A DNA stretch of 64,000 nucleotides, taken from the NCBI RefSeq assembly GCF_002975405.1, contig NZ_PCPS01000001.1:372001-436000 (forward strand), given 5' to 3'. The notes beneath the pieces are model-generated. The model did no database searches. It was not told the origin of the DNA and saw nothing but the letters and a program-made list of their open reading frames with translations. The first letter of the stretch is position 1. Each line of letters starts with the position of its first letter. Made by a program: the position numbers and the translations under genes. This document shows, in pieces, positions 19,270 through 39,640 of this stretch. The stretch comes from Arthrobacter sp. MYb229 (GTDB lineage Bacteria; Actinomycetota; Actinomycetes; Actinomycetales; Micrococcaceae).

Positions 19270-20352
19270 GCTCTTACTATCGGAATCGTCGGACTGCCCA
19301 ACGTCGGCAAGTCCACCATGTTCAACGCGCTGACCCGTGCCCAGGTACTGGCGGCCAACTACCCGTTCGCGACCATCGAACCCAATGTGGGTGTCGTCCC
19401 GCTGCCGGACGCGCGGCTGAAGGTGCTCTCCGGAATCTTCGGTTCCGAGCGCATCCTGCCAGCTACGGTGTCCTTCGTGGACATCGCCGGCATCGTCAAG
19501 GGCGCCTCGGAAGGCGAAGGCCTGGGCAATAAGTTCCTCGCCACCATCCGCGAAGCCGACGCGATCTGCCAGGTGACCCGCGCGTTCGTCAACGACGACG
19601 TGATCCACGTGAACGGCAAGGTCGACCCGGCCTCGGATATCGAGACGATCGCCACCGAGCTGATCCTCGCCGATATGCAGACCATCGAGAATCAGCTGCC
19701 GCGCCTGGAGAAGGAACTGCGCACCAAGAAGATCGAGAAGTCCTTCGTGGACGCGGTGCTCAACGCGCAGAAGATCCTCGAAGAGGGCAAGACGCTGTAC
19801 TCCGCGGCCAAGACCGACGGGGTGGACCTCGAAGAGCTCGCCCCGATGCAGCTGATGACCACCAAGCCATTCATCTACGTGTTCAACACCGATGAGGCCG
19901 GCCTGGCCGACACCGAGATGCAGGCTAAGCTTTCGGCGCTGGTCGCGCCGGCCGAGGCGATCTTCCTGGATGCGCAGTTCGAGGCCGAACTCGCCGAGCT
20001 GGAAGAAGACGAAGCCGAAGAGATGATGGAAGATGCGGGCATCGTCGAGTCCGGTCTGGGCAAGCTGGCTCGCGTCGGCTTCGACACCCTGGGACTGCAG
20101 ACCTACCTGACCGCTGGCCCGAAGGAAACCCGCGCCTGGACCATCAACAAGGGCGCCACCGCACCCGAGGCTGCCGGAGTCATCCACACCGACTTCCAGC
20201 GCGGCTTCATCAAGGCCGAGGTTGTCGGCTTCGAGGACCTGGTTGAGGTCGGCTCGATTGCCAACGCCAAGTCTGCGGGCAAGGCGCGCATCGAAGGCAA
20301 GGAATACATCATGAAGGACGGCGACGTGGTGGAGTTCCGCTTCAACGTGTAG
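19267..20352 (+). CDS. ychF: Redox-regulated ATPase YchF (Obg family)
   Basis: A 361-residue Obg-family P-loop NTPase (ATP-preferring). The G1 loop GLPNVGKST lies near residue 10; other motifs are FVDIAGIVKGASEGEGLGNKF (switch II/G3, split here for length as FVDIAGIVKG and ASEGEGLGNKF), YVFNTDE and the C-terminal TGS domain ending in DGDVVEFRFNV. It associates with ribosomes and stress responses in studied bacteria. Its final 34 bp act as the master copy of the repeats found ten more times downstream, so this gene is probably the anchor site of the cassette array. Confidence 0.97.
   Translation: MALTIGIVGLPNVGKSTMFNALTRAQVLAANYPFATIEPNVGVVPLPDARLKVLSGIFGSERILPATVSFVDIAGIVKGASEGEGLGNKFLATIREADAICQVTRAFVNDDVIHVNGKVDPASDIETIATELILADMQTIENQLPRLEKELRTKKIEKSFVDAVLNAQKILEEGKTLYSAAKTDGVDLEELAPMQLMTTKPFIYVFNTDEAGLADTEMQAKLSALVAPAEAIFLDAQFEAELAELEEDEAEEMMEDAGIVESGLGKLARVGFDTLGLQTYLTAGPKETRAWTINKGATAPEAAGVIHTDFQRGFIKAEVVGFEDLVEVGSIANAKSAGKARIEGKEYIMKDGDVVEFRFNV
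20319..20352 (+). repeat. att-like repeat copy 0: 3' end of ychF
   Basis: Reads CGGCGAC, spacer GTGGTGGA (20326-20333), GTTCCGC, then TTCAACGTG and the stop. It encodes DVVEFRFNV. The two 7-mers form an imperfect inverted repeat around 8 bp, the geometry of a tyrosine-recombinase core site. Similarity to copy 1 continues about 20 bp past the stop. Confidence 0.8.
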
Positions 20353-20377
20353 TCGCGTTTCGCTTTAACCTCTTGCG

Positions 20378-20412
20378 AATGCGCCGGATCCGATTGTCGG
20401 GTCCGGCGCATT
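20378..20412 (+). terminator. ychF terminator
   Basis: AATGCGCCGGA (20378-20388) pairs with TCCGGCGCATT (20402-20412), 11 bp, 13-nt loop, weak T-run. It follows the ychF stop by 26 nt. Confidence 0.75.
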
Positions 20413-20887
20413 TGTCTCCGCAATCGGGGTATTGAATCCGTGAATGGTCTTCAGATTCAGGATCAAAGATTTGATCGATCGGAAGTGCTGTGCCCATCGA
20501 CAGAGGAACAGTCCCGATCCTATTCTGTTGCTGAGCGCGCGGTGAAGGAGTCCTGCGGTGATGGGAGGTGTTCAGCCCGTCCATGAAGTTTATCAAGGAC
20601 GGCCAGATCGGTCCTGGCGTGTCTGCCATGGTGAAGACTCTGACAGATACTGGTATGGGCGGCTGGATACTCTAGGCCTGGTTGTGTACGCTGACAGGGC
20701 CGTTGAGTGATGAGATCCTGTGTGAGTCGGTAAAGGGTCACCCCGAGCGTGCCTTCACATTCGCCTCCTGCGCCACTCAACACCACACCCTCCTGGCAGA
20801 GGAATAGAACTCCCAGGCGGCCCGGAGGGTCGCGTGGTGGGGTAGAAATCCAATAGCTGCGGTTTGTATGGACAAAAGGGGAGTGTC
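20413..20887. other. Gene-poor left end of cassette 1
   Basis: 475 bp with no convincing gene. An 88-codon minus-strand frame (20520-20786) has no recognisable domain and no ribosome-binding site. The stretch may carry the promoter of the large cassette 1 gene. Confidence 0.4.
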
Positions 20888-23350
20888 ATGGAGAAGAAGC
20901 AGGGTCGCGATTTGCCTTCGCGACGAATCGTCACGGCCGATGATGAGGGTCTGGCCGTGGCCTTTGAACGCATGGGGGAAATGCTTGGTCGAATGAACGA
21001 GGGGGAGAACCCGAGGGAGTACCTACTTCGTGGCCCAACGATAATCGCCGAGCATGTCAAGGCCATCGCGGACTCATTGAAGGACGCTGACGCCTTCGAC
21101 GTGATCGAGCTCATGCGGATGCGCGAGATGCCGATGATCCTCGATGGCTACCGCGAAAGCCTTGCTGATCAGATGCCAGCAGCGGTCGAACTCATTGCGC
21201 TCATTCTGCTCACCAGGGGGCAGCGCGAGCCTAGGTCGACGCCGACGAGCAAGACCCGCCCTGCGGGATTGATTCCCGACCTGCATGAACGGGCGCGGGA
21301 AATGTTGATGCTGGGCTCCTTCGCCCTATTCAGTTCGGGTGATCGAAACGAATTCGGACCGCTGACCATGTTGTCCGCCCAATTCGTCAGTCACGATCTG
21401 ACAGTGCGGTTCATGCAGTACGCGCATATCCATGACGAGATCAACGAGGAGCTGTTCTCATCGCGCCACCTCGGTGATTTGCTCCCCGAGACGCTTGGTT
21501 TCAGCTACGAGGACTTCTGCGCCGTGCGTGAGTCAATCATTCGCGTCCACGGGGAGAAGTTCTTCGCTATCCGCGACACCGTCGGCGAGATGTTCGAACA
21601 GCATGCCGAGAAGAAGAACGATCCTGCGTTTGAAGAGGACGCGCGCTCCGCCTTGATGAGCATGTTGGAGTTTCCTGGCGAGCGCGCAACCATCACTGTT
21701 CAAGAGGTTGCCGCAGCTTCGGGTGTGCCGGCAGAGCGGACCCAGGCCGTTCTGGATCGGTTCAGCCTGGCGTTCAACGGCGCTGACGACGCGCTTGCCG
21801 TAGTGACGAAGTACCTGAGCGGCGATAACCCGTTCCGCTTTGCATCGCTGGTCAATGACGCCGACGGCAACTACATCCTGACAGGCAAGCCGATCGGCAC
21901 CGACTGCTTCCGTCAGATCGTCGAAGAGGCACTCAAGGCGGCCCCCGCAAAGTTTCGCCGTTATGAGAAGCGCCGCATGTTCGTAAGTGAGGAGCTCGCT
22001 CTGAAGCGTCTGGCCGCCATCCTAGACTCAGATGCAGCCCACGCGAACCTCAAATACTTCCGCGCCAATCCGGGCATCGAGGTTTCTGAGCTCGGACCCG
22101 ATGCGCAAGACATCAACTCGATCGCCGAGCAGACTGAAGCAGATGGGCTATTCATCATCGAGGATGTCGCGATTTGCGTAGAAGTGAAGGCAAAGAGCAT
22201 CTCCAGTCACGCCCGGCGTGGGCATGTCCAGAGGTTGTCTGCCGACCTGCGGGAGACGGTCGGGAGCGCGACTGACCAGGCACTCAGGCTTGAGAACCAT
22301 ATCCGAACCAATCACGGGCTGTGGCTTGAGAATCGCGAATGGCTGGATCTCTCGGAGATCCACGAGATTCGCTCGGTGACTGTCTACCTCGACGACTTCG
22401 GCCCGCTGTCCACTGCCTTGGACGAACTCGTGCGTGCCAAGGTCGTGGGAAGCGATCGTTTCCCTTGGCTCGTGACGTTGCACGACCTGAGCGTCATTGC
22501 CGAGGTCATCGATAGGCCCACGGAGTTCTTGCTCTATCTGCGACGTCGTACAGAGTCAGAAGTGTCGCTGAAGTTCTCAGCCGTCGACGAGCTCGATCTC
22601 TTCATGCTGTTTCTCTCCGGCGGCTTGTGGGTTGAACCGGACCCAGATCGGGTAAGCGAAGAGTTCCTTGGCGTCGCGCCTTCCACGGGCAAGGAGCGTC
22701 GCCGGTATCAGGTGTCGGCTGTTCCCACTCGTGTGATGACTCAAACCGATGAGTTGGATGCTTGGGTCTACTTCCAGGAAGGCTCTAGCGCTGTAGAAGC
22801 TGAGAAGCCTTCCTTCGGCATCCCGCCGGGCATCGCCCGGATCGTAGACTTCCTTCAGGATGGGCACAAGCCGGGGTGGTTCCGCTTCAGCGCCGATCTG
22901 TTGAACCTTGCTGAGGAGTCGCAGGAGTCGCTGGGTGAGATGGTCGAACGCTTGGCGTTGATGACACGGCAGGACGGCCTCCACCACAATTCGATGATGG
23001 CGTTCGCCGGAGCGTGGGGCTACCCGACGTTGTTCATGGGCTCCAAACCTCGAAAGATGTCTATCCAAGAGGCTAGCACCCGGCTCGCGACCTACGGATT
23101 CGCGAAGAAGCACCAGATTCAGTCGGATCGTGCGCTCATGGTGGTATTCGATGAGGAGCAGCGCATCGTATCGATCCGTTGTGACAACTCGCCTCCGGTA
23201 GAGAACAAAGAGTTTGACAGCCTCATTGTGGAGATGGGCCTCATCCCTCCGGCTGTAATGAGTCGTCTGACCCCACCGTCGGCGCGAAGAGCGACCGCCA
23301 GGCAGAATCCGAGTCGGAAGCCGAAGAAGAGGGGCAAGCGACGCCGCTAA
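20888..23350 (+). CDS. Large cassette protein with PD-(D/E)XK-like nuclease motif
   Basis: An 820-residue hydrophilic protein of unknown family. A NERD/PD-(D/E)XK-like motif is visible in the middle: EADGLFIIEDVAICVEVKAK, with D419, E432 and K434 in the D-x12-ExK spacing, which suggests a metal-dependent nuclease. The tail is strongly basic (KPKKRGKRRR), as in nucleic-acid binders. ATG 20888 has AAGGGGAG just upstream; TTG 20864 is an alternative. It is the only gene of cassette 1, next to ychF. A defence role is plausible from location and motif but unproven. Confidence 0.5.
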   Translation: MEKKQGRDLPSRRIVTADDEGLAVAFERMGEMLGRMNEGENPREYLLRGPTIIAEHVKAIADSLKDADAFDVIELMRMREMPMILDGYRESLADQMPAAVELIALILLTRGQREPRSTPTSKTRPAGLIPDLHERAREMLMLGSFALFSSGDRNEFGPLTMLSAQFVSHDLTVRFMQYAHIHDEINEELFSSRHLGDLLPETLGFSYEDFCAVRESIIRVHGEKFFAIRDTVGEMFEQHAEKKNDPAFEEDARSALMSMLEFPGERATITVQEVAAASGVPAERTQAVLDRFSLAFNGADDALAVVTKYLSGDNPFRFASLVNDADGNYILTGKPIGTDCFRQIVEEALKAAPAKFRRYEKRRMFVSEELALKRLAAILDSDAAHANLKYFRANPGIEVSELGPDAQDINSIAEQTEADGLFIIEDVAICVEVKAKSISSHARRGHVQRLSADLRETVGSATDQALRLENHIRTNHGLWLENREWLDLSEIHEIRSVTVYLDDFGPLSTALDELVRAKVVGSDRFPWLVTLHDLSVIAEVIDRPTEFLLYLRRRTESEVSLKFSAVDELDLFMLFLSGGLWVEPDPDRVSEEFLGVAPSTGKERRRYQVSAVPTRVMTQTDELDAWVYFQEGSSAVEAEKPSFGIPPGIARIVDFLQDGHKPGWFRFSADLLNLAEESQESLGEMVERLALMTRQDGLHHNSMMAFAGAWGYPTLFMGSKPRKMSIQEASTRLATYGFAKKHQIQSDRALMVVFDEEQRIVSIRCDNSPPVENKEFDSLIVEMGLIPPAVMSRLTPPSARRATARQNPSRKPKKRGKRRR

Positions 23351-23390
23351 CGACAACCCCTCGCAACACCGCAAGCAAAGGTTGGTATGT

Positions 23391-23425
23391 GCGGCGACGT
23401 CGTGGAGTTCCGCTTCAACGTCTAA
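23391..23425 (+). repeat. att-like repeat copy 1
   Basis: GCGGCGAC-GTCGTGGA-GTTCCGC-TTCAACGTC-TAA, encoding DVVEFRFNV. The similarity to ychF runs through the stop (TCTCGTTTCGCTCTTAAC versus TCGCGTTTCGCTTTAAC). Upstream AGGTTGGTATGTG is shared with copy 4 (AGGTTGGTATCTG). Confidence 0.85.
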
Positions 23426-23462
23426 TCTCGTTTCGCTCTTAACTCTATTGGTTTTGCAGCGA

Positions 23463-23503
23463 GAGGGCTGGATCTGCACTTCGGTGCGGTTCCAGCCCTC
23501 TTT
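23463..23503 (+). terminator. Terminator behind att copy 1
   Basis: GAGGGCTGGA (23463-23472) pairs with TCCAGCCCTC (23491-23500) and is followed by TTTC. Its position relative to the repeat matches that of the ychF terminator, as expected if this is a displaced ychF 3' end. Confidence 0.8.
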
Positions 23504-23600
23504 CGTTAGGCTGAGAGGTCAGCGAGCATTCATGCCGAGCTGACTGGATTCAGCGATACTGTGTGGTGCAGTAACCCACAGGTTTTCGAGAGGGAAGAAC

Positions 23601-24029
23601 ATGGTTTCTGGGTATGGGAAATACATTTCGCGCGCTGCACAGTCGGAGTGGATGCACTCACTTCGACCGAACACTGCTCACATAGAATTCGCCTTCAACA
23701 ACGGGGACGACGGCCACCCGTTGCTTGCAGCATTGGCTCACCTGAATTCAATTAGAACGGTGGGCGTCGAGTCTGGGAACGGATACTATTTTCGGCCACG
23801 TCCGACGGTGGTGAAGCGAAGGTTTGTCTATGACCGAGAAATCATCCGAGCCATTGACCGTTTTGGGTGTTTCTTCCCTGAATCTGCGAGCTCGGAACAA
23901 TGGACAGAGCTGGGCGATGTTGATGTGGTGTTCCTCGACAAGTGGGGAAGGATGCTCGGAGCGACAGTGACACACGAGGGAATGATCATTACGCCTGACG
24001 ATGAAGATGAGAATCGTCTGCCTCGTTGA
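23601..24029 (+). CDS. Unknown 142-aa cassette protein
   Basis: Sole gene of cassette 2. A soluble protein with IEFAFNNGDDGHPLLAALAH, a basic patch RPRPTVVKRRFVYDRE, and an acidic end (ITPDDEDENRLPR). No domain is recognised. ATG 23601 has AGAGGGAAG about 6 nt upstream. The stop is 18 nt before the next repeat copy. It could be an immunity or effector-type small protein, but nothing in the sequence proves this. Confidence 0.5.
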   Translation: MVSGYGKYISRAAQSEWMHSLRPNTAHIEFAFNNGDDGHPLLAALAHLNSIRTVGVESGNGYYFRPRPTVVKRRFVYDREIIRAIDRFGCFFPESASSEQWTELGDVDVVFLDKWGRMLGATVTHEGMIITPDDEDENRLPR

Positions 24030-24046
24030 TCATGAGGTTGCTTCGT

Positions 24047-24081
24047 GCAGCGACGTGGTGGAGTTCCGCTCCAACGTCTAA
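24047..24081 (+). repeat. att-like repeat copy 2
   Basis: GCAGCGAC-GTGGTGGA-GTTCCGC-TCCAACGTC-TAA, encoding DVVEFRSNV. Preceded by GAGGTTGCTTCGT. Confidence 0.8.
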
Positions 24082-24091
24082 ACCTGCTTAG

Positions 24092-24319
24092 CTAAACGCC
24101 CCCGGGTCTCGAAGCGCTGGCCTTCGTGTGGGCTCGATAACTGCTGATCGCAAGCACAAGTGCCGTCAGCAGCAGCGCTCCACCGACGGCCCAGCCGCCC
24201 ACAGTGTAGTCGACGAGCTGAGGGACGCGAGGCAGGTTGATCGCGGACACTGCGAGGAAGAGAAACACCACGACGGCGCTCTTCCTTGCGGTGGACGGCT
24301 TATTCCGAATCGTTGCCAT
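24092..24319 (-). CDS. Small two-TM membrane protein
   Basis: A 75-residue protein with two hydrophobic segments (SAVVVFLFLAVSAINLP and WAVGGALLLTALVLAISS) and a basic tail. It lies 21 nt downstream of a truncated Cys-rich peptide frame on the same strand. That arrangement resembles bacteriocin plus immunity protein, but this is inference only. Confidence 0.45.
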   Translation of the reverse strand: MATIRNKPSTARKSAVVVFLFLAVSAINLPRVPQLVDYTVGGWAVGGALLLTALVLAISSYRAHTKASASRPGGV

Positions 24320-24340
24320 TTGCTTGTTCGTTTCTCGTGA

Positions 24341-24547
24341 TTAGCTGACACCGATTAAGCACGGTCCGACGGATGCGCCGGCAACTGCAGTGAAGCCAGC
24401 CACGCAGATGATGCAGCCTGCTCCCACGGTAACAGCGCAGAAGGCTGCGCTGTCGCACCGCTGCTGCTGATCTACGGTGCTGCGTGTCTGGCAGGGAACG
24501 TCGTGGGTGGGCGGTTGCGGATCGAGAGCTGAACCGTGCTCACATGA
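24341..24547 (-). pseudogene. Truncated Cys-rich hydrophobic peptide (bacteriocin-like)
   Basis: An open frame without any usable start codon. Its C-terminal part reads CDSAAFCAVTVGAGC then IICVAGFTAVAGASVG then PCLIGVS and stops. Five Cys in a Gly/Ala/Val-rich hydrophobic peptide recall halocin-C8-like or circular/disulfide bacteriocins of actinobacteria. The N-terminal leader is missing: the frame runs back into the MFS relic on the other strand. A broken bacteriocin precursor is the best guess. Confidence 0.3.
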
Positions 24548-24878
24548 TCACGCTCACCGGCACGGGACTCTCATTGCTCGTCGCAGGATTTGTCAGTGCC
24601 AGTCCGGTCGGTGCCACGTATTTTCCACCTTCCCGCCTCTGAACACCTGGATCGCTACCAGTGCCGATGGAATCGCGCCCGGGCTGGCCCTCGCTGTCAA
24701 CAGCTCCGCGTTCAACATCGCCGCCGCCGGAGGGCGCGGCGGTGCAGTACTGACCGCCGGGCTGGATGCCATCAGGCTTCCCTATCTTGGAATCATCGGC
24801 GCTCTGGCTGTGGCCGTCCTGATCTCTACCGTGTTCCGGGCAACCCAAAAGTCCTCGGCTCACGTGCTTCGACCATGA
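24541..24878 (+). pseudogene. MFS transporter relic (C-terminal part, frameshifted)
   Basis: Frame 1 gives MITLTGTGLSLLVAGFVSAS and stops. After a shift the sequence continues LNTWIATSADGIAPGLALAV, NSSAFNIAAAGG and a last hydrophobic helix. This is the C-terminal third of a drug-exporter-type (DHA1) MFS protein. The N-terminal two thirds are absent. Confidence 0.55.
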
Positions 24879-24966
24879 GGGCTGAATGGCTTCGCCGCGG
24901 GTGCAGCATCGTCCGAAGTCTGCATGGGTCTCGCGTCGACGGCGATTTAACGCGCAAAGTTAAATA

Positions 24967-25000
24967 CCGGAACGCCGTGGAGTTCCGGTTTTCAATTTAA
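24967..25000 (+). repeat. att-like repeat copy 3 (perfect inverted core)
   Basis: CCGGAAC (24967-24973), spacer GCCGTGGA, GTTCCGG (24982-24988), then TTTTCAATT and TAA. The arms are a perfect 7-bp inverted repeat around 8 bp. It encodes NAVEFRFSI. Class B left arm (ATACCGGAAC). Confidence 0.65.
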
Positions 25001-25342
25001 TGTCTGGTGAGGTTCCAGGTGCTAATCGGCAACCTGTCGTTACCTGGTCGATTCGGTTGATTTCGTCTCTCAGGAAAAAGTTTGCGTGAGCTATCCACAG
25101 GGGTCTCTAAGTGTAGGAGGCTGAGCGCCACGTTGGCGATTGCTAAGGACGACTGCACAGAGCCACACCCCATGTCCCCGATGATCGGTGCACCGAGCAC
25201 TTTTACGACGGACTCGCCTTGAACTAAGCATTCTGTTTACGGGGACGCGAGTCCCGCCCACGGGCGCAGAATTGGCTTGAGAGGAGATGTCTTGGCTACC
25301 CTCCGAACGGCTTCAGTTCTCTCCGAAGTTCGTCGCACTGGC
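25001..25342. other. Gene-free left end of cassette 4
   Basis: About 340 bp with lower GC than the flanks. No gene, RNA or repeat was recognised. Confidence 0.4.
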
Positions 25343-26035
25343 CTACTGCCGCTTTTCGTTCGCTCTGCTCAGCCCGCCGAGCCATTCGATGAGGAGCTGG
25401 GTCTCTGCCCTGCCAAGGACGTCTGGTTGTGCTGCGGCGAGCTCGATGGTGGTGGTGATCGGGTTGTCGGCTCGTGTTCCCGCACCGGTGATCGCTGAGA
25501 TAGCACCTTCACGGACAGCCTGAGAGAGGGTAGGGTCCGGCGCTGCCAAGACGATCTGCCGCAGGGTGACACCGATATTTGTCACGAGGATGTGTGCCGC
25601 AGCCTGCTGCGCAGGAACGGCGAGCCGGCCCTGCGTGGCTGCGCGCGTCGTGAGGCCGAGGAGGATTTCGCTTGGCCGCGACTGCGCTTCAGGGGAGTAG
25701 CCTGGTTGAACTTTGCCGTACATGAGTGAGTAGAAGCCGGGATTGGCCAGGCCGAAGGTGACGTGGGCGTCCCATCCGACGCGGATGTCCTGGATGGGGT
25801 CCCCGGACGACTCCATCGAAGACTTCTCGCCCAGGTACAGGTCAAAACCATGTTTAATGACCGCATCGATCAAACCCTGCTTGGAGCCGAAGAAGTGGTA
25901 CAGCGTCGGCATCTTCACTCCGACCGTCTCGCACACCGCACGTAGCGAGAACTCCTCCCCGGGGGCGGCAGCGATGAGGTCGGCAGCCGCCGAAATCAAT
26001 CGCTCCCGTGTATGGCTTGTCGGCGTTACTGTCAT
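25343..26035 (-). CDS. TetR family transcriptional regulator
   Basis: A 230-residue regulator. The N-terminal HTH has RERLISAAADLIAAA, SLRAVCETVGVKMPTLYHFFGSK, the classical TetR pattern. The C-terminal ligand domain is unassigned. It is divergent from an SDR gene, with a near-palindrome at 26039-26058 between them, so it probably represses itself and the SDR operon. Confidence 0.88.
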   Translation of the reverse strand: MTVTPTSHTRERLISAAADLIAAAPGEEFSLRAVCETVGVKMPTLYHFFGSKQGLIDAVIKHGFDLYLGEKSSMESSGDPIQDIRVGWDAHVTFGLANPGFYSLMYGKVQPGYSPEAQSRPSEILLGLTTRAATQGRLAVPAQQAAAHILVTNIGVTLRQIVLAAPDPTLSQAVREGAISAITGAGTRADNPITTTIELAAAQPDVLGRAETQLLIEWLGGLSRANEKRQ

Positions 26036-26038
26036 GAT

Positions 26039-26058
26039 GCTATGTTAGCTGATATAGC
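26039..26058. promoter_or_regulatory. Putative TetR operator
   Basis: GCTATGTTAGCTGATATAGC is an imperfect 20-bp palindrome centred on AGCT, with 8 of 10 positions matched in each half. It lies directly in front of the TetR start and 41 bp before the SDR start. Confidence 0.6.
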
Positions 26059-26099
26059 GGGATGATACTGTTGCATACTGACGATACAGAGGGAACATC

Positions 26100-26855: not shown

Positions 26856-26884
26856 GCTCGACCCCACGAAAAGAGGAGTATCTC

Positions 26885-30940: not shown

Positions 30941-30949
30941 AACATCGTG

Positions 30950-32123: not shown

Positions 32124-32142
32124 GCCCAGACGTTTGCCAACC

Positions 32143-32396: not shown

Positions 32397-32450
32397 GCGA
32401 GAGCGAAGCTAACCGGACTCCGTTGAAGACACGGTTGGCTTCGCTCTCGC
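32397..32450 (-). terminator. Terminator of the oxidoreductase gene
   Basis: GCGAGAGCGAAGC (32397-32409) pairs perfectly with GCTTCGCTCTCGC (32438-32450); AACCG/CGGTT extends the stem after one mismatch. It lies 11 nt beyond the stop of the minus-strand gene. Confidence 0.75.
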
Positions 32451-32460
32451 GTGCCCGAAC

Positions 32461-33405
32461 TCAGACGGTCAGAACGATTTTCCCTGCGACGTGTCCGCTC
32501 TCGCCGAGTTCGTGGGCGCGGTGCCCATCTCTCAGAGGGAAGGTAGCTGCGATCACGGGGCGGACAGCCCCGTCGTGGAGGAGTTCGGCGATCGCCTGCA
32601 TGCCCGCTTGGTCGCCTTCTACGAGCATCATCTCGTGGCGGGCACCGATGGCGCTGGCTTCGGCAGAATGGTCAGTGGTGGTGTTCAATGCGATGGAGAC
32701 GATGGTGCCGCCGGCTCGGAGGGTTCGCAGGGAGCGAGGAACGTAGTCGCCGCCGATTGTGTCCAGTACTACGTCAATGTCTTGTGCGGCTGCCGAGAAG
32801 TCATCTTTGGTGTAATCGATGACTTCGTCTGCTCCCAGCGACGTGACCAGTTCATGGTTCTTGGAACTCGCCGTCCCGATCACATATGCACCCTTGGCTT
32901 TGGCGATCTGCACGGCGAAGTGACCAACTCCACCAGCGGCCGCATGGATGAGAACTCGCTGTCCCGGTTGCACGTCGGCGACATTGACGAGCGCCTGCCA
33001 CGCGGTCAACGCTGCGAGTGGCACGGCAGAAGCTGCTTCATGATCGATGTTCGCCGGCTTCCGGGTCAAGTGCCGCGCAGGGGAAACGACGAACTCGGCC
33101 GCGGCTCCGTGCCCCTGCGGGTAAGGGAGCATTCCGAACACCTCATCACCCGCCTTGTGGATGGAGACACCGAGGCCGACCTCCTCGACGACGCCCGACA
33201 CATCCCAGCCGAGCACTTTCGATCCGTCCCCTAGGAATCCGGGGATACGCCGGTGCACCCAGTCTGTCGGGCTCAGTCCCGTCGCGCGGACCCGGACGAG
33301 GACTTCGGCTGGTCCAGGGGTCGGGCGCGGCTGTTCAGTCAAGTGGAGTACTTCTGGCCCGCCGAGAATGTTCTGGGTGAGCGCTTGCATGGTGTGATCT
33401 GTCAT
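32461..33405 (-). CDS. Quinone-oxidoreductase-type MDR enzyme
   Basis: A 314-residue zinc-independent medium-chain reductase. The N-terminal GroES-like part has ATGLSPTDWVHRRIPG and LGWDVSGVVEEVG; the NAD(P) loop reads VLIHAAAGGVGHFAVQIAKAKGA, broken here as AAAGGVGHFAVQIAK, followed by GADEVIDYTKDDF. The Cys/His zinc ligands of alcohol dehydrogenases are absent. It is divergent from the GlxA-type regulator 71 bp away, which probably controls it. Confidence 0.85.
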   Translation of the reverse strand: MTDHTMQALTQNILGGPEVLHLTEQPRPTPGPAEVLVRVRATGLSPTDWVHRRIPGFLGDGSKVLGWDVSGVVEEVGLGVSIHKAGDEVFGMLPYPQGHGAAAEFVVSPARHLTRKPANIDHEAASAVPLAALTAWQALVNVADVQPGQRVLIHAAAGGVGHFAVQIAKAKGAYVIGTASSKNHELVTSLGADEVIDYTKDDFSAAAQDIDVVLDTIGGDYVPRSLRTLRAGGTIVSIALNTTTDHSAEASAIGARHEMMLVEGDQAGMQAIAELLHDGAVRPVIAATFPLRDGHRAHELGESGHVAGKIVLTV

Positions 33406-33476
33406 GGTTCCAATTCTGGTCTCCTCGCGTCGCCCTGACGAGTGGCCCGCTGGCCATTATGTGGGAGGATTGGGCC

Positions 33477-34433
33477 ATGCATCGTGTTGTAGTTCTCGCA
33501 TCCCAAGGAGTGCTTCCCTTCGAGCTGAGTATCGCGACGCGGCTGTTCGGTTCCGCGCTCGACGAGAATGGTGAGCCTCTGTATGAGGTGATCACCTGCT
33601 CACCAGATGGGCACCCGGTCCGCACGGCCGCAGACTTCACGATCACGGTGACGCACGACGCGTCCGTTCTCGCGACCGCGGACACTATCGTCATCCCCGC
33701 GGGGGAACACCACGCGAACATCACCGGGCCGGAGCAGCTCCCAGAGGACCTCGCTGCCGCCGTCGCGCTCGTCCCGCCCGCTGCGCGCATCGTTGCCATT
33801 TGCCTGGCGTCGTATGTGCTCGCTGCGGCGGGTCTACTCGAAGGGTGTCGCGCCACAACGCATTGGAAGAGAACTGAGCATTTCATCGCTTCCTACCCGG
33901 CCATCGAGGTAGAAGTTGATGTGCTCTATGTGCAAAGTGGACGGATCTTCACGTCCGCCGGAGCCGCGGCCGGCATCGACCTGTGCCTGCAGCTGATCCG
34001 CATCGACCACGGCAGCCGGGTTGCGAACGATGTTGCACGACGCTGCGTCATTCCGCCCTGGCGTGACGGTGGACAGGCGCAGTACGTGGAAAGACCCGTG
34101 CCCCATTCTGACGACTCGAGCACCTCTGGGACCCGAACGTTTGCACTCCGACACCTTCAGCGTCCGCTACCCGTCGCCGAGCTGGCCGAACACGCCGGAA
34201 TGAGTCGCCGGACCTTCACCCGACGATTCCGCGCGGAAGTCGGACAAAGCGTCGGGGAGTGGCTCACCCGACAACGAATCGAACTCGCGAGAGCGCTCCT
34301 TGAGACCACAACGCTCCCCATTGATCAGGTCGCAGAGCAAGCCGGATTCGGAAGCGCCTTCACGCTCCGTGACCACTTCCGCGCTTCTCTTGGCACGTCT
34401 CCTAGCCAATATCGGAACAGTTTCCACGAATAG
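33477..34433 (+). CDS. GlxA-type AraC family regulator (DJ-1/PfpI plus HTH)
   Basis: A 318-residue regulator. The N-terminal DJ-1/PfpI-like domain begins HRVVVLASQGVLPFELSIA and has IVAICLASYVLAAAGLLEG with the nucleophile-elbow Cys. The C-terminal AraC HTH (ELAEHAGMSRRTFTRRF ... QVAEQAGFGSAFTLRDHF) follows. GGGAGGA at 33462-33468 is well placed for ATG 33477. It is divergent from the oxidoreductase gene of the same cassette (7) and likely its regulator. Confidence 0.88.
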   Translation: MHRVVVLASQGVLPFELSIATRLFGSALDENGEPLYEVITCSPDGHPVRTAADFTITVTHDASVLATADTIVIPAGEHHANITGPEQLPEDLAAAVALVPPAARIVAICLASYVLAAAGLLEGCRATTHWKRTEHFIASYPAIEVEVDVLYVQSGRIFTSAGAAAGIDLCLQLIRIDHGSRVANDVARRCVIPPWRDGGQAQYVERPVPHSDDSSTSGTRTFALRHLQRPLPVAELAEHAGMSRRTFTRRFRAEVGQSVGEWLTRQRIELARALLETTTLPIDQVAEQAGFGSAFTLRDHFRASLGTSPSQYRNSFHE

Positions 34434-34574
34434 CAACAGGGCCCGGCATGCCAGTCTCGCCCCGGAGCAGCAAGCGACGAGGGATAGAAATATCGGAACC
34501 CGGATTCTGCGCCTTGGCCACCGGCGAGAGGTCTATCGATGAGGGACAGTATGGCTCAGAGTCAGAGGTTATTC

Positions 34575-34612
34575 CGTACCGTAATGCGGTGGAGTTCCGC
34601 TTCAATATCTAA
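34575..34612 (+). repeat. att-like repeat copy 7
   Basis: CGTACCGTAATGC then GGTGGAGTTCCGC then TTCAATATC-TAA, encoding NAVEFRFNI. Class B left arm (AGAGGTTATTCCGTACC). Confidence 0.75.
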
Positions 34613-35136
34613 GCTTGGCAAGCGCTCGGTCTTCTTCGGCATCGTCGAGCCCGCCTGCGGCGAACGATTATGGTGTTGTTCGTAGGCATAAACGTCGGGC
34701 GAATCATTAAACTTGAGCCGGGCTATTGTGTCATGCAGGAGGGCCCGAGGCATGGCGATCGTGACGCAGTCGCGCTAGCCCGGTTCCATGATCCACAGCG
34801 GCAGCGTAGCAGGCTCTATCCATGAATTGATGCCAAGAACTGAGCGCCATCCGGCAGGCATGAATCGGATCAATCCCGAGGGCACAATCGTCGAGGAAGA
34901 CTCAGTGAATTGCGATCATCGCAGCTAGACCGGATTGGGCCTGTTGGCCCCATCGAATACGAGACCATCTAGGATCTGGCCGTGACCCTCGCGGTCCGGC
35001 ACCCCACCGCCGCCTAATCTTCTTGCAACCCTCAGACGGGTGGCTGAGGTGATCGCGAGGCAATTTGCTCCGCTCAGAAACGCCACCTATCCTGAGCGAG
35101 GTATTCAGAAACATCTATAGGTGGGAGGTATCGCAA
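34613..35136. other. Gene-poor left part of cassette 8
   Basis: About 520 bp with no convincing gene. Short frames have no domain or ribosome-binding site. Composition is less GC-rich than the core genes. Confidence 0.35.
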
Positions 35137-35373
35137 GTGAGAAAAATTTCACGGGTTGCCATGCAACGCGTGGCGCTATACCTCGGCATCTCCGTTTTTG
35201 GCATGGGCCTGCTGATTGGAGCGTATTGCCTGATATCGGGTAGGTCGCCGGTAGAAGTTCTTGAAAACCTGTGGGTCGCATTGTTATTCGCTTTCTTTGT
35301 GGCCGTAGCCACCGCGTTGCGCGACCAGCGGAAAGACGAAGCACCGCGTTCCAAGGGAACGAATCGCAAGTGA
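35137..35373 (+). CDS. Small two-TM membrane protein, cassette 8
   Basis: A 78-residue protein with a basic start (RKISRVAMQR), two hydrophobic helices (VALYLGISVFGMGLLIGAY and LWVALLFAFFVAVATAL) and a basic hydrophilic tail. GGGAGG at 35122-35127 lies 9 nt before GTG 35137, which decides the start over TTG/ATG codons further up. Function unknown. Confidence 0.5.
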   Translation: MRKISRVAMQRVALYLGISVFGMGLLIGAYCLISGRSPVEVLENLWVALLFAFFVAVATALRDQRKDEAPRSKGTNRK

Positions 35374-35374
35374 G

Positions 35375-35527
35375 GTGGGGGCCTTCTTTTTGTTCCGTCT
35401 GGGCAGCTCAGGCCAGTCGCTGCTGGGCATGCTGAGCGAGGTCTCCGGGGGAGAGTCAGACGAGGACATCCGTGAGGCGAATACACTGTGCAGATTCGTT
35501 GTGCCCGACCGCGAGAGCTACAGCTAG
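35375..35527 (+). CDS. Possible 50-aa peptide, cassette 8
   Basis: Begins at GTG 35375, 2 nt after the previous stop: short hydrophobic start (GAFFLFRLGSS), then an acidic stretch (GGESDEDIRE) and FVVPDRESYS. Coupling to the membrane-protein gene is the only support. Confidence 0.25.
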   Translation: MGAFFLFRLGSSGQSLLGMLSEVSGGESDEDIREANTLCRFVVPDRESYS

Positions 35528-35550
35528 TGCCCACTTTTCCAATGGCGTAC

Positions 35551-35587
35551 GTGCCAGAACGCGGCTGTATTCAGGTTTAACGTCTAG
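35551..35587 (+). repeat. att-like repeat copy 8 (diverged)
   Basis: GTGCCAGAAC-GCGGCTGT-ATTCAGG-TTTAACGTC-TAG, encoding NAAVFRFNV. Class B; the right arm carries changes. Confidence 0.6.
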
Positions 35588-35608
35588 CGTTATTGACGCA
35601 CTCCGTTA

Positions 35609-35623
35609 TATACTGGAACTGTG
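35609..35623 (+). promoter_or_regulatory. Leaderless higBA promoter
   Basis: TATACT (35609-35614) ends 6 nt before GTG 35621. It lies only 21 bp after repeat copy 8, so the promoter is inside the cassette. Confidence 0.5.
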
Positions 35624-35902
35624 ATCAGATCGTTTGGCAGCAAGGATACCGAGCGTCTGTGGCTTCGTGAGCGCGTGCCGTCCATTGATCCTCGGATACT
35701 CCGGGTGGCGCTGCGCAAGCTCCGCCAGGTGGGGTCAGCGACGAACCTGGATGACTTGCGAAGTCCGCCGGGCAATCGGCTCGAAGCCTTGAAAGGCGAC
35801 CGGGCCGGCCAGCACAGCATACGTGTTAATGACCAATGGCGGATCTGCTTCAAATGGACAGACGCCGGACCAGAGGAGGTGGAGATCGTTGACTACCACT
35901 GA
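35621..35902 (+). CDS. higB: HigB-type toxin (RelE/ParE superfamily)
   Basis: A 93-residue toxin of the plasmid-maintenance killer group: MIRSFGSKDTERLW, LRKLRQVGSATNLDDLRSPPGNRLEAL, KGDRAGQHSIRVNDQWRICF and EVEIVDYH. These proteins cleave mRNA on the ribosome. It is followed by an overlapping antitoxin gene and both look intact, so cassette 9 carries a working-looking addiction module. Confidence 0.92.
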   Translation: MIRSFGSKDTERLWLRERVPSIDPRILRVALRKLRQVGSATNLDDLRSPPGNRLEALKGDRAGQHSIRVNDQWRICFKWTDAGPEEVEIVDYH

Positions 35903-36191
35903 GAAGATGCAGCCCATCCACCCGGGCGAGGTCCTCATGGAGGACTTCATCGAGGGATTCGGGATCACGCAGAACAAGCTCGCTGTGTCGATCGGAGTGC
36001 CGCCGCGGCGCATCAACGAGATCGTGCACGGCAAGCGTGGGATCTCGGCGGACACCGCGCTGCGGCTCGCGAAGTACTTCGGCACATCGGCCGAGTTCTG
36101 GCTCAACCTGCAGAGCCACTACGAGCTCGATCGCGCAGAGGACATTGCGGGGGAGCAGATAGCTTCGATCACGCCGCTGAAGGTGGCATGA
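35889..36191 (+). CDS. higA: HigA-type antitoxin (XRE family)
   Basis: A 100-residue HTH antitoxin: MQPIHPGEVLMEDFIEGFGI, TQNKLAVSIGVPPRRINEIVHGKRGISADTALRLAKYFG (HTH plus the conserved HigA part), SAEFWLNLQSHYELDRA. Binds and silences HigB and represses the operon. AGGAGG at 35875-35880 fits TTG 35889, overlapping higB by 14 nt; ATG 35907 is an alternative. Confidence 0.9.
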   Translation: MTTTEKMQPIHPGEVLMEDFIEGFGITQNKLAVSIGVPPRRINEIVHGKRGISADTALRLAKYFGTSAEFWLNLQSHYELDRAEDIAGEQIASITPLKVA

Positions 36192-36264
36192 ACGGTGGAG
36201 TGCGGGTCGCAGGCCCCGATCGACACATGCCAAATGATGTCGCGCTCCTGCTCGTCACGGTTTC

Positions 36265-36540
36265 CCAGTAGTTCGGGCAACCGGAATCCAACGCCGAGCT
36301 GCGTTTCACCGTTGTCGGCCGAGCAGTGCACGGTTCAGGCCTCGGTACCTCGATGCGCAGGGTTATCGATGACGCCGCCCACCACGGGGCCTGCTTCCTG
36401 GAAGTGAAGACGCTCGCAGCCTCTCATCGGGATGCCGGATTCACGCGTACACGCGCTTTCTCCGCGAAGTGGGGGATTCTAGCCGCTGGTGGAGGCTGAA
36501 CTATGGGGTGAAGCCGGGCACTTGGGCAGCAGCTGCTTCC
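36265..36540 (+). pseudogene. Decayed GNAT acetyltransferase, paralogue of the gene at 43564
   Basis: Several DNA blocks match the intact acetyltransferase at 43.56-44.06 kb in order: TTCGGGCAACCGGAATCCAACGC here versus TTTGGGCAGCCTGAATCCAACGC there (23 bp, written in part), then GAAGTGAAGACGCTCG and CTCATC. Frames are broken by indels and stops. It follows higA by about 75 bp. Confidence 0.6.
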
Positions 36541-36735
36541 TGAGAATCCGGGCGTAAAGAATTGCCGGCTCGTGATCTGAACGAGTGCGGGCAAGGGAGC
36601 GGACCGACGAGGTGGACCCTGGCACTGGTCAACGGCTTGTCGACCAGAAAGCCTTGCGCCTAAGTCGGGCGAGCCCGTAAAAAAGATTTGGCCCAGGGTG
36701 TTTCTGTCGGAATGCGCTTTCGCGAGAGGTTTCTC
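36541..36735. other. Right end of cassette 9
   Basis: About 195 bp with no recognised gene between the acetyltransferase relic and repeat copy 9. Confidence 0.3.
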
Positions 36736-36773
36736 CGTGCCCGAACTCGGTGGAGATCCGCTTGAACGTGTAA
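36736..36773 (+). repeat. att-like repeat copy 9
   Basis: CGTGCCCGAAC-TCGGTGGA-GATCCGC-TTGAACGTG-TAA, encoding NSVEIRLNV. Class B left arm (AGAGGTTTCTCCGTGCC). Confidence 0.75.
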
Positions 36774-36896
36774 AAATTCATTGAAAAGTGCTTGTAGGCC
36801 CGCGGGCTGACGGGCACCTTTATTCCTGGCGTGGTGATGCCGCCGCGAGAACCATTTCCAATGATACTTCTCTGGCAGGAGCCGGCTAGAACTTGC

Positions 36897-37565
36897 CTAC
36901 GTGAGGCTGTCTCGCAGCGACATCAGGTGAGCGCGGCTGCGCTGAGCGGCCGCGGCCGCGTCTCGATCGAAGATCGCGTCGGCGAGCCCACCGTGAAGGT
37001 CCTGGTCCGCCGTGTGCCCAAATGTCTTGCGGATTCGCAGCATTTCGATCATCGCCTCGCGAAGCCGCGGGGTGAAGCTGTCGAACAGATCCAGAAGTAT
37101 TGGATTGTGCGCTGCGGCCACGATCGCGCGGTGGAACGCGGTGTCGGCATCGACGTGGCTCTCGATTTCATCGCGGTATTCGGCGCGGGCGGAGAGGGCC
37201 TGCCGGATCGCACGGACATCCGCCGGGGTCCGGCGTGCGGCTGCGAGCGAGGCGGCTTCCGTTTCGATGGCGATACGTGCCTCGATGACCGAGATGATGC
37301 CGGCGCGACGCAAGACGATATCCCAGTCTTCCGAGACATCCAGGGCTGTGATGAAGACACCCGATCCCTGCCGGGAGGCCAGGACTCCGCGCCCTGCCAG
37401 CTGGCGAATGGCCTCGCGCAGTGTGGATCGTCCGACGCCGAGCTGGGGAGCAAGCGTGGTCTCGCCCGGGAGTTTTTCTCCCAGCGCCCATTCGCCCGAC
37501 CGGATGCGTTCGAGTAGCAGATCCGCTGCCTGATCCGCCAACGGTGTTCGAGTCACTTGTGCCAC
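36897..37565 (-). CDS. GntR/FadR-type transcriptional regulator
   Basis: A 222-residue regulator. The winged HTH reads PLADQAADLLLERIRSGEW, KLPGETTLAPQLGVGRSTLREAIRQLAGRG; the helical FCD ligand domain has EARIAIETEAASLAAARR, DADTAFHRAIVAAAHNPIL and later His positions expected to bind metal/ligand. GGAAGG lies 7 nt before GTG 37565. It is divergent from the leu leader and leuA, and an inverted repeat CAACTC...GAGTTG (37578-37604) sits between them. Confidence 0.85.
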   Translation of the reverse strand: MAQVTRTPLADQAADLLLERIRSGEWALGEKLPGETTLAPQLGVGRSTLREAIRQLAGRGVLASRQGSGVFITALDVSEDWDIVLRRAGIISVIEARIAIETEAASLAAARRTPADVRAIRQALSARAEYRDEIESHVDADTAFHRAIVAAAHNPILLDLFDSFTPRLREAMIEMLRIRKTFGHTADQDLHGGLADAIFDRDAAAAAQRSRAHLMSLRDSLT

Positions 37566-37577
37566 GTAATCGCCTTC

Positions 37578-37604
37578 CAACTCATCAGCTTGTCTGAGGA
37601 GTTG
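37578..37604. promoter_or_regulatory. Putative GntR operator
   Basis: CAACTC (37578-37583) and GAGTTG (37599-37604) form a perfect inverted repeat with 15 bp between, directly upstream of the leu leader -10 (TACAGT, 37608-37613). Confidence 0.45.
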
Positions 37605-37619
37605 TGTTACAGTCTATCC

Positions 37620-37667
37620 ATGTTCTTCGAAAATTTCCTTCTACTTCGCCGCCACGGCGGGGCGTAG
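37620..37667 (+). CDS. leuL: leuA leader peptide
   Basis: ATG 37620 opens a 15-residue peptide, MFFENFLLLRRHGGA, with three consecutive Leu codons, then TAG. The LLLRR-(H)-GGA pattern is the known actinobacterial leuA attenuator leader: ribosomes stall at the Leu codons when leucyl-tRNA is short. TACAGT ends 6 nt before the ATG, so the mRNA is probably leaderless at the leader itself. leuA starts 70 nt downstream. Confidence 0.75.
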   Translation: MFFENFLLLRRHGGA

Positions 37668-37692
37668 CCAGACCGGCTCCCCGTCGTGGAGG
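37652..37692 (+). promoter_or_regulatory. leuA attenuator hairpin
   Basis: CCACGGCGGGG (37652-37662) can pair with CCCCGTCGTGG (37680-37690), 11 bp with one G-U. The left arm is inside the leader codons after LLLRR, so a ribosome stalled at the Leu codons or at the stop would change the folding. Confidence 0.55.
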
Positions 37693-37736
37693 CGAATGCT
37701 GTGCCGGTCGCAATTCTTGGACTGAAGGAAACAAAA

Positions 37737-39551
37737 ATGACAAAGACATCATTTCCCCATATCTCGACTCCGGCAGGCTCCGTGCCGGATAATGCACCGA
37801 GCTGGAACCAGCAGCGATACTCACAGATGCCCTCGCACCGCTACTCCAACGTCTACTCTCGAGTCGACGTGCCACTGGCCGCACGCGACTGGCCGTCGAA
37901 GCAGCTTACCGAGGCTCCGCAGTGGGTTCCGGTTGACTTGCGCGATGGCAACCAAGCGCTCGCTGAGCCGATGGACCCGGCACGCAAGCGCCGCTTCTTC
38001 GAGCTCATGGTCGCCATGGGCTACAAGGAGATCGAGGTCGGCTACCCTTCGGCATCACAGACCGACTACGACTTCGTGCGGCTGATCGCGGAAACCGGCA
38101 TCGCCCCGAATGACGTGACGATCGTCGTATTCACCCCAGCTCGACGAGAGCTCATCGAGCGGACGGTTGCCTCGCTCAAGGGGATTTCCAACCCGGTCGT
38201 GATCCACATGTATACGGCGACCGCCCCAACGTGGCGCAACCTGGTGCTCGGATACGAGCGGGAAGCGCTCAAAGAACTGATTTTGGCCGGTGGACGTGAT
38301 GTGCTCGAATTTGCCGGGGACATGCCGAACGTACGCTTCGAATTTTCCCCAGAGGTTTTTAATCTGACCGAACCGGACTATGTACTCGACATCTGCAACA
38401 GCATGACAGAGCTGTGGGATGCGAGGCCTGAGCGTCCGGTGATTCTCAATCTTCCGGCCACCGTCGAAATCGCAACTCCAAACGTGTATGCCGACCAGAT
38501 CGAATACATGCACAAAAATCTTGCACGCCGGGATTCCGTCATCCTGTCGGTGCATCCGCATAATGACCGCGGTACCGGGATCGCCTGCGCCGAGCTTGCG
38601 GTCCTCGCCGGAGCTCAACGCGTCGAGGGGTGCATCTTTGGAAACGGCGAACGCACCGGAAACGTCGACATCGCGACTCTGGCGCTGAATCTCCATGCCC
38701 AAGGCATCGACCCAATGATCGATTTTTCCGACATCGATGAGATCCGTCGAACGGTGGAGTATTGCAATCGTCTGGAGGTGCACCCGCGCCAACCCTACGT
38801 CGGGGACCTCGTGCACACCGCCTTCAGCGGCACCCACCAGGATGCGATCAAAAAGGGGTTTATCGCTCATCGCGTTCAGGCAAGCGCCGAACAGCGTCCG
38901 GAACACGATATTCCCTGGAACGTCCCTTACCTGCCGATCGACCCGGCAGATTTAGGGCGAAATTATGCTGCCGTAATACGCGTGAACTCCCAATCGGGCA
39001 AGGGCGGAATCGCATATCTGCTCGAAGCTGAGTACGGGATTGAGCTGCCACGGCGCCTGCAGATTGACTTCGCCCGCCACGTGCAGCGGCATACGGACTC
39101 CACCGGCAGCGAAGCTAGTGCAGCCGGGCTGTGGAGTGTTTTTCAGCAGGTCTATCTGCATCAGGGCTCATCGGCCGAGCGCCTCGCGTTGCACAGCTAT
39201 CAGGTTGTAGATATGGAGGGAGCCGCTCGTGTAGAGGTTGTTCTCGACGTTTCCGGGCAGCAACACAGCAGCACGCATGATGGTGTTGGGCCGGTTGAGG
39301 CTTTGACTTCCGCACTGGAGATTCACGGCATCGCAGTTGACGTCCTCAGCTTGCACCAGACCAGCGTGGGTGCAGGCAACGACAGCGAGGCATTAACTCT
39401 GCTTGAATGCCGAACCGATGACGGCATTTTCTGGACCGCTGGGCGTGGGCGTTCGGTGTTGGCGGCGAGTATGTCGGCTGTTATGTCAGCGGCCAATCGG
39501 GTGACCGCACAGAGGCAGCCGGAAAAATCGGGGGTTATTGGCCTGCCGTAG
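37737..39551 (+). CDS. leuA: 2-isopropylmalate synthase
   Basis: First committed step of leucine synthesis (acetyl-CoA plus 2-ketoisovalerate). 604 residues, the long actinobacterial type. The TIM barrel has WVPVDLRDGNQAL (metal Asp), GYPSASQTDYDF, SVHPHNDRGTG (metal His pair) and GCIFGNGERTGNVDI. The C-terminal regulatory domain ends with ECRTDDGIFWTAGRG. GAAGGA 7 nt upstream supports ATG 37737. It sits inside the cassette array with its own GntR gene and attenuator and has lower GC than the core, so it may be an extra, transferred copy; whether another leuA exists lies outside the window. Confidence 0.95.
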   Translation: MTKTSFPHISTPAGSVPDNAPSWNQQRYSQMPSHRYSNVYSRVDVPLAARDWPSKQLTEAPQWVPVDLRDGNQALAEPMDPARKRRFFELMVAMGYKEIEVGYPSASQTDYDFVRLIAETGIAPNDVTIVVFTPARRELIERTVASLKGISNPVVIHMYTATAPTWRNLVLGYEREALKELILAGGRDVLEFAGDMPNVRFEFSPEVFNLTEPDYVLDICNSMTELWDARPERPVILNLPATVEIATPNVYADQIEYMHKNLARRDSVILSVHPHNDRGTGIACAELAVLAGAQRVEGCIFGNGERTGNVDIATLALNLHAQGIDPMIDFSDIDEIRRTVEYCNRLEVHPRQPYVGDLVHTAFSGTHQDAIKKGFIAHRVQASAEQRPEHDIPWNVPYLPIDPADLGRNYAAVIRVNSQSGKGGIAYLLEAEYGIELPRRLQIDFARHVQRHTDSTGSEASAAGLWSVFQQVYLHQGSSAERLALHSYQVVDMEGAARVEVVLDVSGQQHSSTHDGVGPVEALTSALEIHGIAVDVLSLHQTSVGAGNDSEALTLLECRTDDGIFWTAGRGRSVLAASMSAVMSAANRVTAQRQPEKSGVIGLP

Positions 39552-39607
39552 TCTTCCCGTTCGAGAAGCTGCCAGGTTTCCGGCAGAGCACGCCTGGCGG
39601 TGGTTTC

Positions 39608-39640
39608 GTGTGGCGACGTGGTGATTTCAGGTTCAATGCC
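39608..39640 (+). repeat. att-like repeat copy 10 (oldest-looking)
   Basis: GTGTGGCGAC-GTGGTGA-TTTCAGG-TTCAATGCC. One base is missing in the spacer relative to the others and the stop codon is lost; with the base restored it would encode DVV.FRFNA. Class A left arm (GGTGGTTTCGTG). It marks the right end of the array. Confidence 0.55.

Follow-up and report, generated by a model that had tools for sequence, protein, structure and literature searches.

The region downstream of ychF in Arthrobacter sp. MYb229 raises the question of how the 3′ end of a protein-coding gene came to be repeated, in a single orientation, between unrelated genes. The window analysed here is a 64-kb stretch of that genome (contig NZ_PCPS01000001.1, positions 372,001 to 436,000 of the forward strand), in which an initial annotation had seen repeated site-specific insertion at the ychF end. 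We consider it likely that the region is a stack of recombinase-less cassettes, which would have been laid at the ychF 3′ end by islands encoding ychF-targeting large serine recombinases (LSRs). Directly seen in the sequence are the anatomy of the site, its single orientation, breakpoints near a central GT, and LSR genes beside ychF with matching P arms.

In the proposed scheme, the ychF end would serve as the LSR attB, with half-sites B and B′ around the central dinucleotide GT. Insertion of an LSR island carrying attP (P, P′) would leave B-P′ in ychF and P-B′ at the far end of the island. The cassettes in the window would thereby end in P-B′ sites, of which one is present as a P half alone and one is badly decayed.

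Anatomy of the repeated site

The claim that copies of the ychF end recur in one orientation was confirmed by a 20-mer search, shuffled controls and a matrix scan. The 20-mer from the ychF end, allowing up to 3 mismatches, matched 8 times in the window, each time on the + strand, and 100 shuffles gave 0 matches. A position matrix identified 10 sites (Table 1), the ychF end and nine further copies, which share one orientation, span 16.4 kb and are spaced by 3073, 656, 919, 5940, 690, 547, 2435, 975 and 1186 bp. No site exceeded the matrix threshold on the other strand of 19,001-50,000, and a scan of both strands of 33 oriented regions gave 0 reverse-strand sites at the threshold used. The spacings agree with the cassette sizes first proposed, except that the 5.9-kb "cassette" holds a further boundary, a half-site at 28,755 in which the left half stands without the right half. 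A decayed last copy at 39,621 has a matrix score of 4.5, within noise, and is credible because it lies 0.15 kb before the conserved right flank. Beyond that flank, at 47464, a weak site-like match (28.6 with the first matrix, not found by the later one) is perhaps a stray remnant. In the whole 4.0-Mb genome a 29-base core had 5 matches, all within the window, and outside the window the 20-mer had one further match (C19), with 3 mismatches. The window gave no hits in Rfam and tRNA scans.

The site was examined in 121 copies from the 33 oriented regions, comprising 26 ychF ends and 95 sites elsewhere. The 95 non-ychF sites are conserved from -25 to +23 and near background beyond, and 89 of them carry the central GT. 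The repeat had been described as a plain ~34-bp ychF end, and its right half is indeed ychF-like; however, the shared sequence is ~49 bp, and the outer part of its left half, for which the consensus is TCAGAGGTTGTTATGTGCCGGAACGTG, is foreign to ychF. The inner left half reads GGAAC or GGAAT in 39/95 sites, and the inner ten left bases are ychF-like (GCGAC) in 26/95; the same holds for 4 of the window's 9 non-ychF copies.

Outside these bases, the two halves differ in spacing. GTT is found at -21 in 56/95 cassette sites and 1/26 ychF ends, and at -16 in 0/95 cassette sites; AAY is found at +15 in 78/95 and at +20 in 0/95. Between the halves the outer motif is shifted by 5 bp: in the left half it stands at -21, in the right half at a position equivalent to -16. 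The matrix with which sites were picked spanned only -12 to +25, so that -21 lay outside it and the conservation further left was unselected. Passages of a paper on serine integrases (PMC3783163) describe the same 5-bp shift of the zinc-domain motif between LSR attP and attB. Array sites thus have the features of LSR attachment sites: a length of ~50 bp, a central dinucleotide, and an outer motif 5 bp further out in P. By its sequence, the site joins a P arm of LSR type to a B′ arm resembling ychF, a hybrid at which recombination by an LSR is predicted.

Two minor features were seen in the same sample. In the window (20352-20375) and in several relatives, the first GT half-site is followed 23 bp later by a second one (10/121 copies by a strict definition, 15/121 by a loose one). 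Site decay showed a weak trend with distance from ychF (281/10,000 permutations as extreme, 11 arrays), which was reversed in G331, G326 and G230.

Recombinases at ychF

The clearest LSR island among the relatives is that of G112, in which an altered ychF tail is followed by a 12-kb island carrying defence genes that resemble HmaC and HmaB, then by a 524-aa LSR (P0001) and, ~450 bp further on, by a P-B′ site. Both a Resolvase and a Recombinase domain are present in P0001, which also matches serine integrases of known structure; the NCBIfam models nearest to it are XisF, CcrB and CcrA, all far below cut-offs. The unusual ychF ends of G112, G210 and G202 all have an LSR, or a piece of one, downstream. 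When the family was searched with P0001, 49 of its 395 genomes had a match at E ≤ 1e-30. Among the 30 LSR loci listed, ychF is on the fetched stretch in 20. In all 20 the LSR lies ~0.07 to 19 kb downstream, and 19 show a changed ychF tail; only in G332 is the ychF end of the ordinary kind, with the LSR 0.1 kb away. As to the other ten loci, ychF is absent from the fetched stretch (11.6 to 20 kb) in G138, G153, G340, G220 and G130, from 60 kb in G197 and from 20 kb in G036; G251 and G174 end at contig breaks, and G041 was outside the examined loci. In 19 relatives YchF ends in a new C-terminus contributed by the LSR island (for example, EFRHGITSA...GKK versus EFRFNV), and LSR insertion thus alters this conserved ATPase.

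To compare the altered tails with the arrays, a 27-bp P-arm matrix was built from 66 array left arms, excluding LSR-island genomes, and scored on the reverse-complemented ychF tails of 13 LSR genomes. The tails matched the array left arm in 12 of the 13, with scores of 2.6 to 27.1; G332 scored -14.8, and 26 ordinary ychF ends scored ≤0.9. Ten of the 12 matching tails were unequalled within up to 4 kb on either side, and in G185 and G243 there were 3 positions each as good. Because the tails match in 12 of 13 genomes, the array left arm can be interpreted as an LSR P arm and the altered tail as P′; together with the 5-bp offset, this makes the array junctions look like LSR attR (P-B′). LSR islands also lie ahead of P-B′ sites in G151 (7 sites), G202 (3), G210 (2) and G032 (2), the first of the 7 in G151 being perhaps the island's own end.

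In a tree of 29 LSR proteins, which omitted the truncated G202 protein, 19 fell in one clade (97/99), 12 of them labelled ychF and 5 site. Neither label followed the tree more closely than shuffled labels did (ychF, 4 changes, 190/500 as low; site, 186/500). Four LSRs outside this clade (G180, G135, G206 and G235) are also at ychF, and ychF targeting is therefore wider than the clade.

The recombinases of the window's own genome bear on several alternatives. It encodes only two PF00589 proteins, one XerD-like (341.8, cut-off 329.6) and one XerC-like (324.1, just under 335.15), and since these are the sole two, serine-type chemistry is indicated. Their presence could favour a role of host XerC/XerD in moving the cassettes, as in dif-using elements, but the site resembles an LSR attR and the LSR islands insert at the same central GT of ychF, which makes this most improbable. 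A true integron, with IntI and a folded attC, would account for the layout alone: short cassettes, a single site orientation and changes at the sites. However, the scores of the two tyrosine recombinases, 135.5 and 115.4, fall below the integron-integrase cut-off of 265, and the point of exchange is close to the middle of the site dyad, which speaks against a folded attC. With an integron integrase missing from the genome, this explanation was rejected and can hardly be entertained.

A third tyrosine-based alternative comes from phages. In the Streptomyces satellite phage Mulchroom and two IMG/VR contigs, which have the same sequence there, the ychF-end core (L080 7346-7375, L076 8558-8585 and L077 7602-7629) adjoins a 250-aa tyrosine integrase. 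Mulchroom is akin to the array in having this core beside its integrase gene and differs in its tyrosine enzyme and in having no array; the portions of the Mulchroom paper considered here (PMC10690885) do not name ychF. That such a phage-borne integrase inserts the cassettes at ychF is very unlikely: a search for it, made without a known positive, found it in 0/395 family genomes at E ≤ 1e-12, and both the 5-bp offset and the matching P′ indicate serine recombinases. Phage tyrosine integrases, followed up from Mulchroom and IMG/VR, were thus unsupported as array drivers in the 395-genome family, and ychF is apparently an independent target of tyrosine integrases as well.

Cassette exchange and a probable route of movement

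Cassettes are shared at full length across strains with changed neighbours. Cassette 1 of the window is 99.8% identical to the first cassette of G169 (3019/3019 bp) and has a different right neighbour, and cassette 4a is 88% alike to G181 across 3.4 kb, with homology stopping at ~28,755, at the lone left half-site. A 1447-bp cassette opens the arrays of G075 and G230 and takes second place in G169, and the first cassette of G023 is the second of G254. G169 carries cassette A ahead of B and C, where G230 starts with B and C, and the order is B, C, D in G230 and B, D in G075. Of 281 homology ends inside arrays, counted over non-independent pairs, 248 lie within 60 bp of a site, compared with 22% expected for random points. 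In 9 pairwise comparisons, bases left of the centre tended to follow the left cassette and those from ~+8 the right cassette, with +2 mixed, so that the switch from left-hand to right-hand polymorphisms falls between about -1 and +8. These data suggest that the cassettes move as units. The relatives carry some of these cassettes in a different order rather than one invariant block, and presence/absence breaks coincide with site boundaries, as the 248 ends attest; the initial proposal, that cassettes were inserted one by one and site-specifically at the 3′ end of a protein-coding gene, is thus supported.

The same breakpoints bear on a simpler origin, in which the ychF end was duplicated long ago and its copies were spread by homologous recombination, with no site-specific exchange. 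The repeats could recombine, but their outer left halves are foreign to ychF, and breakpoints fall near GT where neighbouring sites share little sequence. This candidate is contradicted by both observations and has a negligible probability.

How would LSR islands move cassettes that have no recombinase? Most likely the cassettes travel as passengers. An LSR island would sit at ychF ahead of older cassettes; given a directionality factor, the left B-P′ could recombine with any downstream P-B′, and the resulting circle would carry the nearest cassettes. The circle would then insert at ychF of a new host, and the LSR part could later leave alone, with the cassettes remaining. New cassettes would be islands that lost their recombinase and regained a normal ychF end. 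This route needs only known LSR reactions, as attP x attB and attL x attR suffice.

Alternatively, the array may be a serine counterpart of the integron, in which an LSR acts on P-B′ directly, inserting single circular cassettes at ychF and excising them from within the array. The front-insertion pattern (A before B and C in G169, B and C at the start in G230) favours this, as do the models nearest to P0001 and the comparison of G230 with G075, in which the B|D junction has the left arm of B and the right arm of D, though the sites flanking C differ. However, serine integrases follow pairing rules which, according to the part of PMC3783163 that deals with them, disfavour P-B′ x P-B′ and P-B′ x B-B′ and exclude such pairings without extra factors, and the same cassette orders can come from the passenger route. 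We regard direct action on P-B′ as unlikely. A related, tentative possibility, which we hold to be doubtful, is that the system is an Actinomycete integron counterpart with ychF as platform and P-B′ as cassette sites, single cassettes being inserted and reshuffled by visiting-island LSRs of relaxed directionality.

Several observations count against laying of the stack by LSR islands. The pairing rules mean that single-cassette moves need either the passenger route or relaxed enzymes. A search with P0001 found nothing at E ≤ 1e-30 in the window's own genome, where the single PF07508 protein (L008), likewise unmatched, lies away from the array; in 20 relatives the element at ychF contains an LSR gene. 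At this threshold, LSRs were found in 49/395 genomes, 20 of them placed at ychF, whereas ~68/395 genomes (a hand count from a long table) have two or more core matches; many arrays are thus without an LSR, since the LSR-at-ychF count falls short of the multi-core genomes. Of 25 genomes chosen mainly for arrays, only 3 had an integrase or resolvase match (PF00589/PF00239) within or next to the ychF region, namely G202, G210 and G127, the last with a fragment of a broken resolvase. The P′ scores of G185 and G243 are weak, the inner left half is ychF-like rather than P-like in the 26 sites noted above, and 39/95 sites have no GTT at -21. Laying by ychF-targeting islands remains our preferred explanation, and because no relative of the island LSRs was found in its genome, the window array is probably dormant until a helper island arrives.

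Distribution, related systems and features of the window

A 26-base core matched in 309/395 family genomes, many at the ychF end alone. The P-B′ pattern was found in at least 117 stretches of named genomes; 90 of the 117 listed hold more than one site, and among 129 matches in the listed stretches 1 was assigned to the ychF end. Names for 80 listed stretches include Glutamicibacter, Arthrobacter, Kocuria, Rothia, Nesterenkonia, Brevibacterium, Microbacterium, Cryobacterium, Demequina, Brachybacterium, Cellulomonas, Nocardia and Rhodococcus. As judged by these matches, the array system is present in many Actinomycetes.

The intervals between sites are short (87 intervals, median 1448 bp, 71 below 3 kb). 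Cargo was surveyed with one open reading frame (ORF) each from 62 of the 78 ORF-yielding cassettes among these intervals, omitting near-duplicates and some short or doubtful ones. These 62 ORFs matched 70 Pfam families, led by short-chain dehydrogenases and GNAT acetyltransferases (4 each) and PIN and helix-turn-helix (HTH) families (3 each); defence models were matched by single members (GajA, HEC-05 and PDC-S06).

In Staphylococcus, the staphylococcal cassette chromosome (SCC) elements, including SCCmec, use LSRs, enter the 3′ end of the housekeeping gene rlmH, and form tandem elements with repeated ends, some of them recombinase-less. The array is alike in its tandem elements, repeated end sites and units without a recombinase. 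It differs in its target, which is ychF (TIGR00092) and not rlmH; in its enzyme, P0001 being neither CcrA (35.6 bits, cut-off 700) nor CcrB (60.2 bits, cut-off 900), with no CcrC model among the NCBIfam models listed for it; and in its short intervals and Actinomycete hosts. The enterococcal cassette chromosome (ECC), as outlined in excerpts of PMC6222049, likewise shares LSRs, insertion at a housekeeping-gene 3′ end, and tandem elements with repeated ends, some recombinase-less. Islands and phages with serine integrases share the attB, attP, attL and attR rules and the 5-bp offset (passages of PMC3783163), and differ in that the array is a long tandem of recombinase-less units at one attB. 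With integrons the array shares short cassettes, a common end site in one orientation, cassette-by-cassette exchange and a recombinase outside the cassettes, but no integron integrase was found in the genome, the sites are LSR half-sites around GT and not attC, and the platform is the ychF end. Most likely, then, the chemistry is SCC-like and the layout integron-like. The initial view of an integron-like store with a ychF-derived site holds for the layout; the recombinase family is another, and the site would be a P-B′ hybrid rather than a plain ychF copy.

Among the open-licence papers listed on ychF with integrases or islands, on Actinobacteria serine-recombinase cassettes and on hotspots, none dealt with the array system. 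One open-licence paper that mentions ychF together with a serine recombinase is about pneumococcal prophages near ychF, and the main text of Integrase-On-Demand (PMC12884075) leaves ychF unmentioned. If our explanation is true, the array would be a widespread Actinomycete gene-capture platform outside integrons, and its link to a single conserved gene would make it easy to locate in any genome. Such a platform would provide a cargo catalogue with exact boundaries (toxin-antitoxin, defence, regulators, enzymes and many unknown genes), together with natural LSRs and the sites matched to them at a conserved target, and would raise the question of how strictly one-way LSRs build and move hybrid-site arrays.

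Table 1 Features of the window, in order of position; half-site types are predicted from sequence, and matrix positions are those of the 10 sites picked by the position matrix
Feature	Coordinates	Strand	Matrix position	Remarks
ychF	19267..20352	+		TIGR00092, 422.5 bits vs cut-off 279.2; 3′ end is the putative insertion target (attB)
First site, ychF copy, B-B′ type	20304..20352	+	20,329	centre GT 20329-20330
Cassette 1	20353..23376	+		single 820-aa gene 20888-23350 +; no Pfam, PADLOC or NCBIfam match
Site 2, P-B′	23377..23425	+	23,402	20-mer + matrix
Cassette 2	23426..24032	+		ORF 23601-24029 +, no family; partly 79-80% alike to G169_5, G230_11
Site 3, P-B′	24033..24081	+	24,058	20-mer + matrix
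Cassette 3	24082..24951	+		ORF 24477-24878 +, no family
Site 4, P-B′, diverged	24952..25000	+	24,977	matrix
Cassette 4a	25001..28729	+		TetR 25343-26035 -; short-chain dehydrogenase 26100-26855 +; LtrA 27321-28478 +
Cassette 4a, SnoaL-like	26885-27214	+		just below Pfam cut-off
Site 5, left (P) half alone, right half lost	28730..28755	+		G181 homology ends here
Cassette 4b	28756..30891	+		ORF 28878-30443 - (521 aa), no family
Site 6, P-B′	30892..30940	+	30,917	20-mer + matrix
Cassette 5	30941..31581	+		glyoxalase-like ORF 31027-31443 -; E 0.0079, under Pfam cut-off
Site 7, P-B′	31582..31630	+	31,607	20-mer + matrix
Cassette 6	31631..32128	+		helix-turn-helix protein 31818-32123 +; G230 90% alike over 422 bp
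Site 8, P-B′	32129..32177	+	32,154	20-mer + matrix
Cassette 7	32178..34563	+		zinc-type dehydrogenase 32461-33405 -; AraC/DJ-1 regulator 33459-34433 +
Site 9, P-B′	34564..34612	+	34,589	20-mer + matrix
Cassette 8	34613..35538	+		no confident gene
Site 10, diverged	35539..35587	+	35,564	matrix; centre GC instead of GT
Cassette 9	35588..36724	+		HigB-like toxin 35705-35902 +; HTH antitoxin 35907-36191 +
Site 11, P-B′	36725..36773	+	36,750	20-mer + matrix
Cassette 10	36774..39595	+		GntR/FCD regulator 36897-37580 -; 2-isopropylmalate synthase 37686-39551 +
Decayed last site	39596..39644	+		score 4.5, weak
Conserved right flank	39789..41847	-		SCO1664 family, TIGR03847, MSMEG_4193

The variable region ends before 39,789, the start of a block conserved among relatives; this block lies at varying distance from ychF in 11/16 relative regions and was not within the fetched stretch in the other 5. 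The window proteins given to PADLOC had no match better than E 8e-7. Relatives of cassette 9 are found in G254, G220, G004 and others. A weak tyrosine-integrase remnant lies beside an array site in G202 (L047, about 5889-5999). On contig 1 of G169 (L060, 7958 and 9397), with no ychF in the 20 kb fetched, two array-type sites flank a cassette like G230_1 (89%), and this pair is a possible secondary insertion site.

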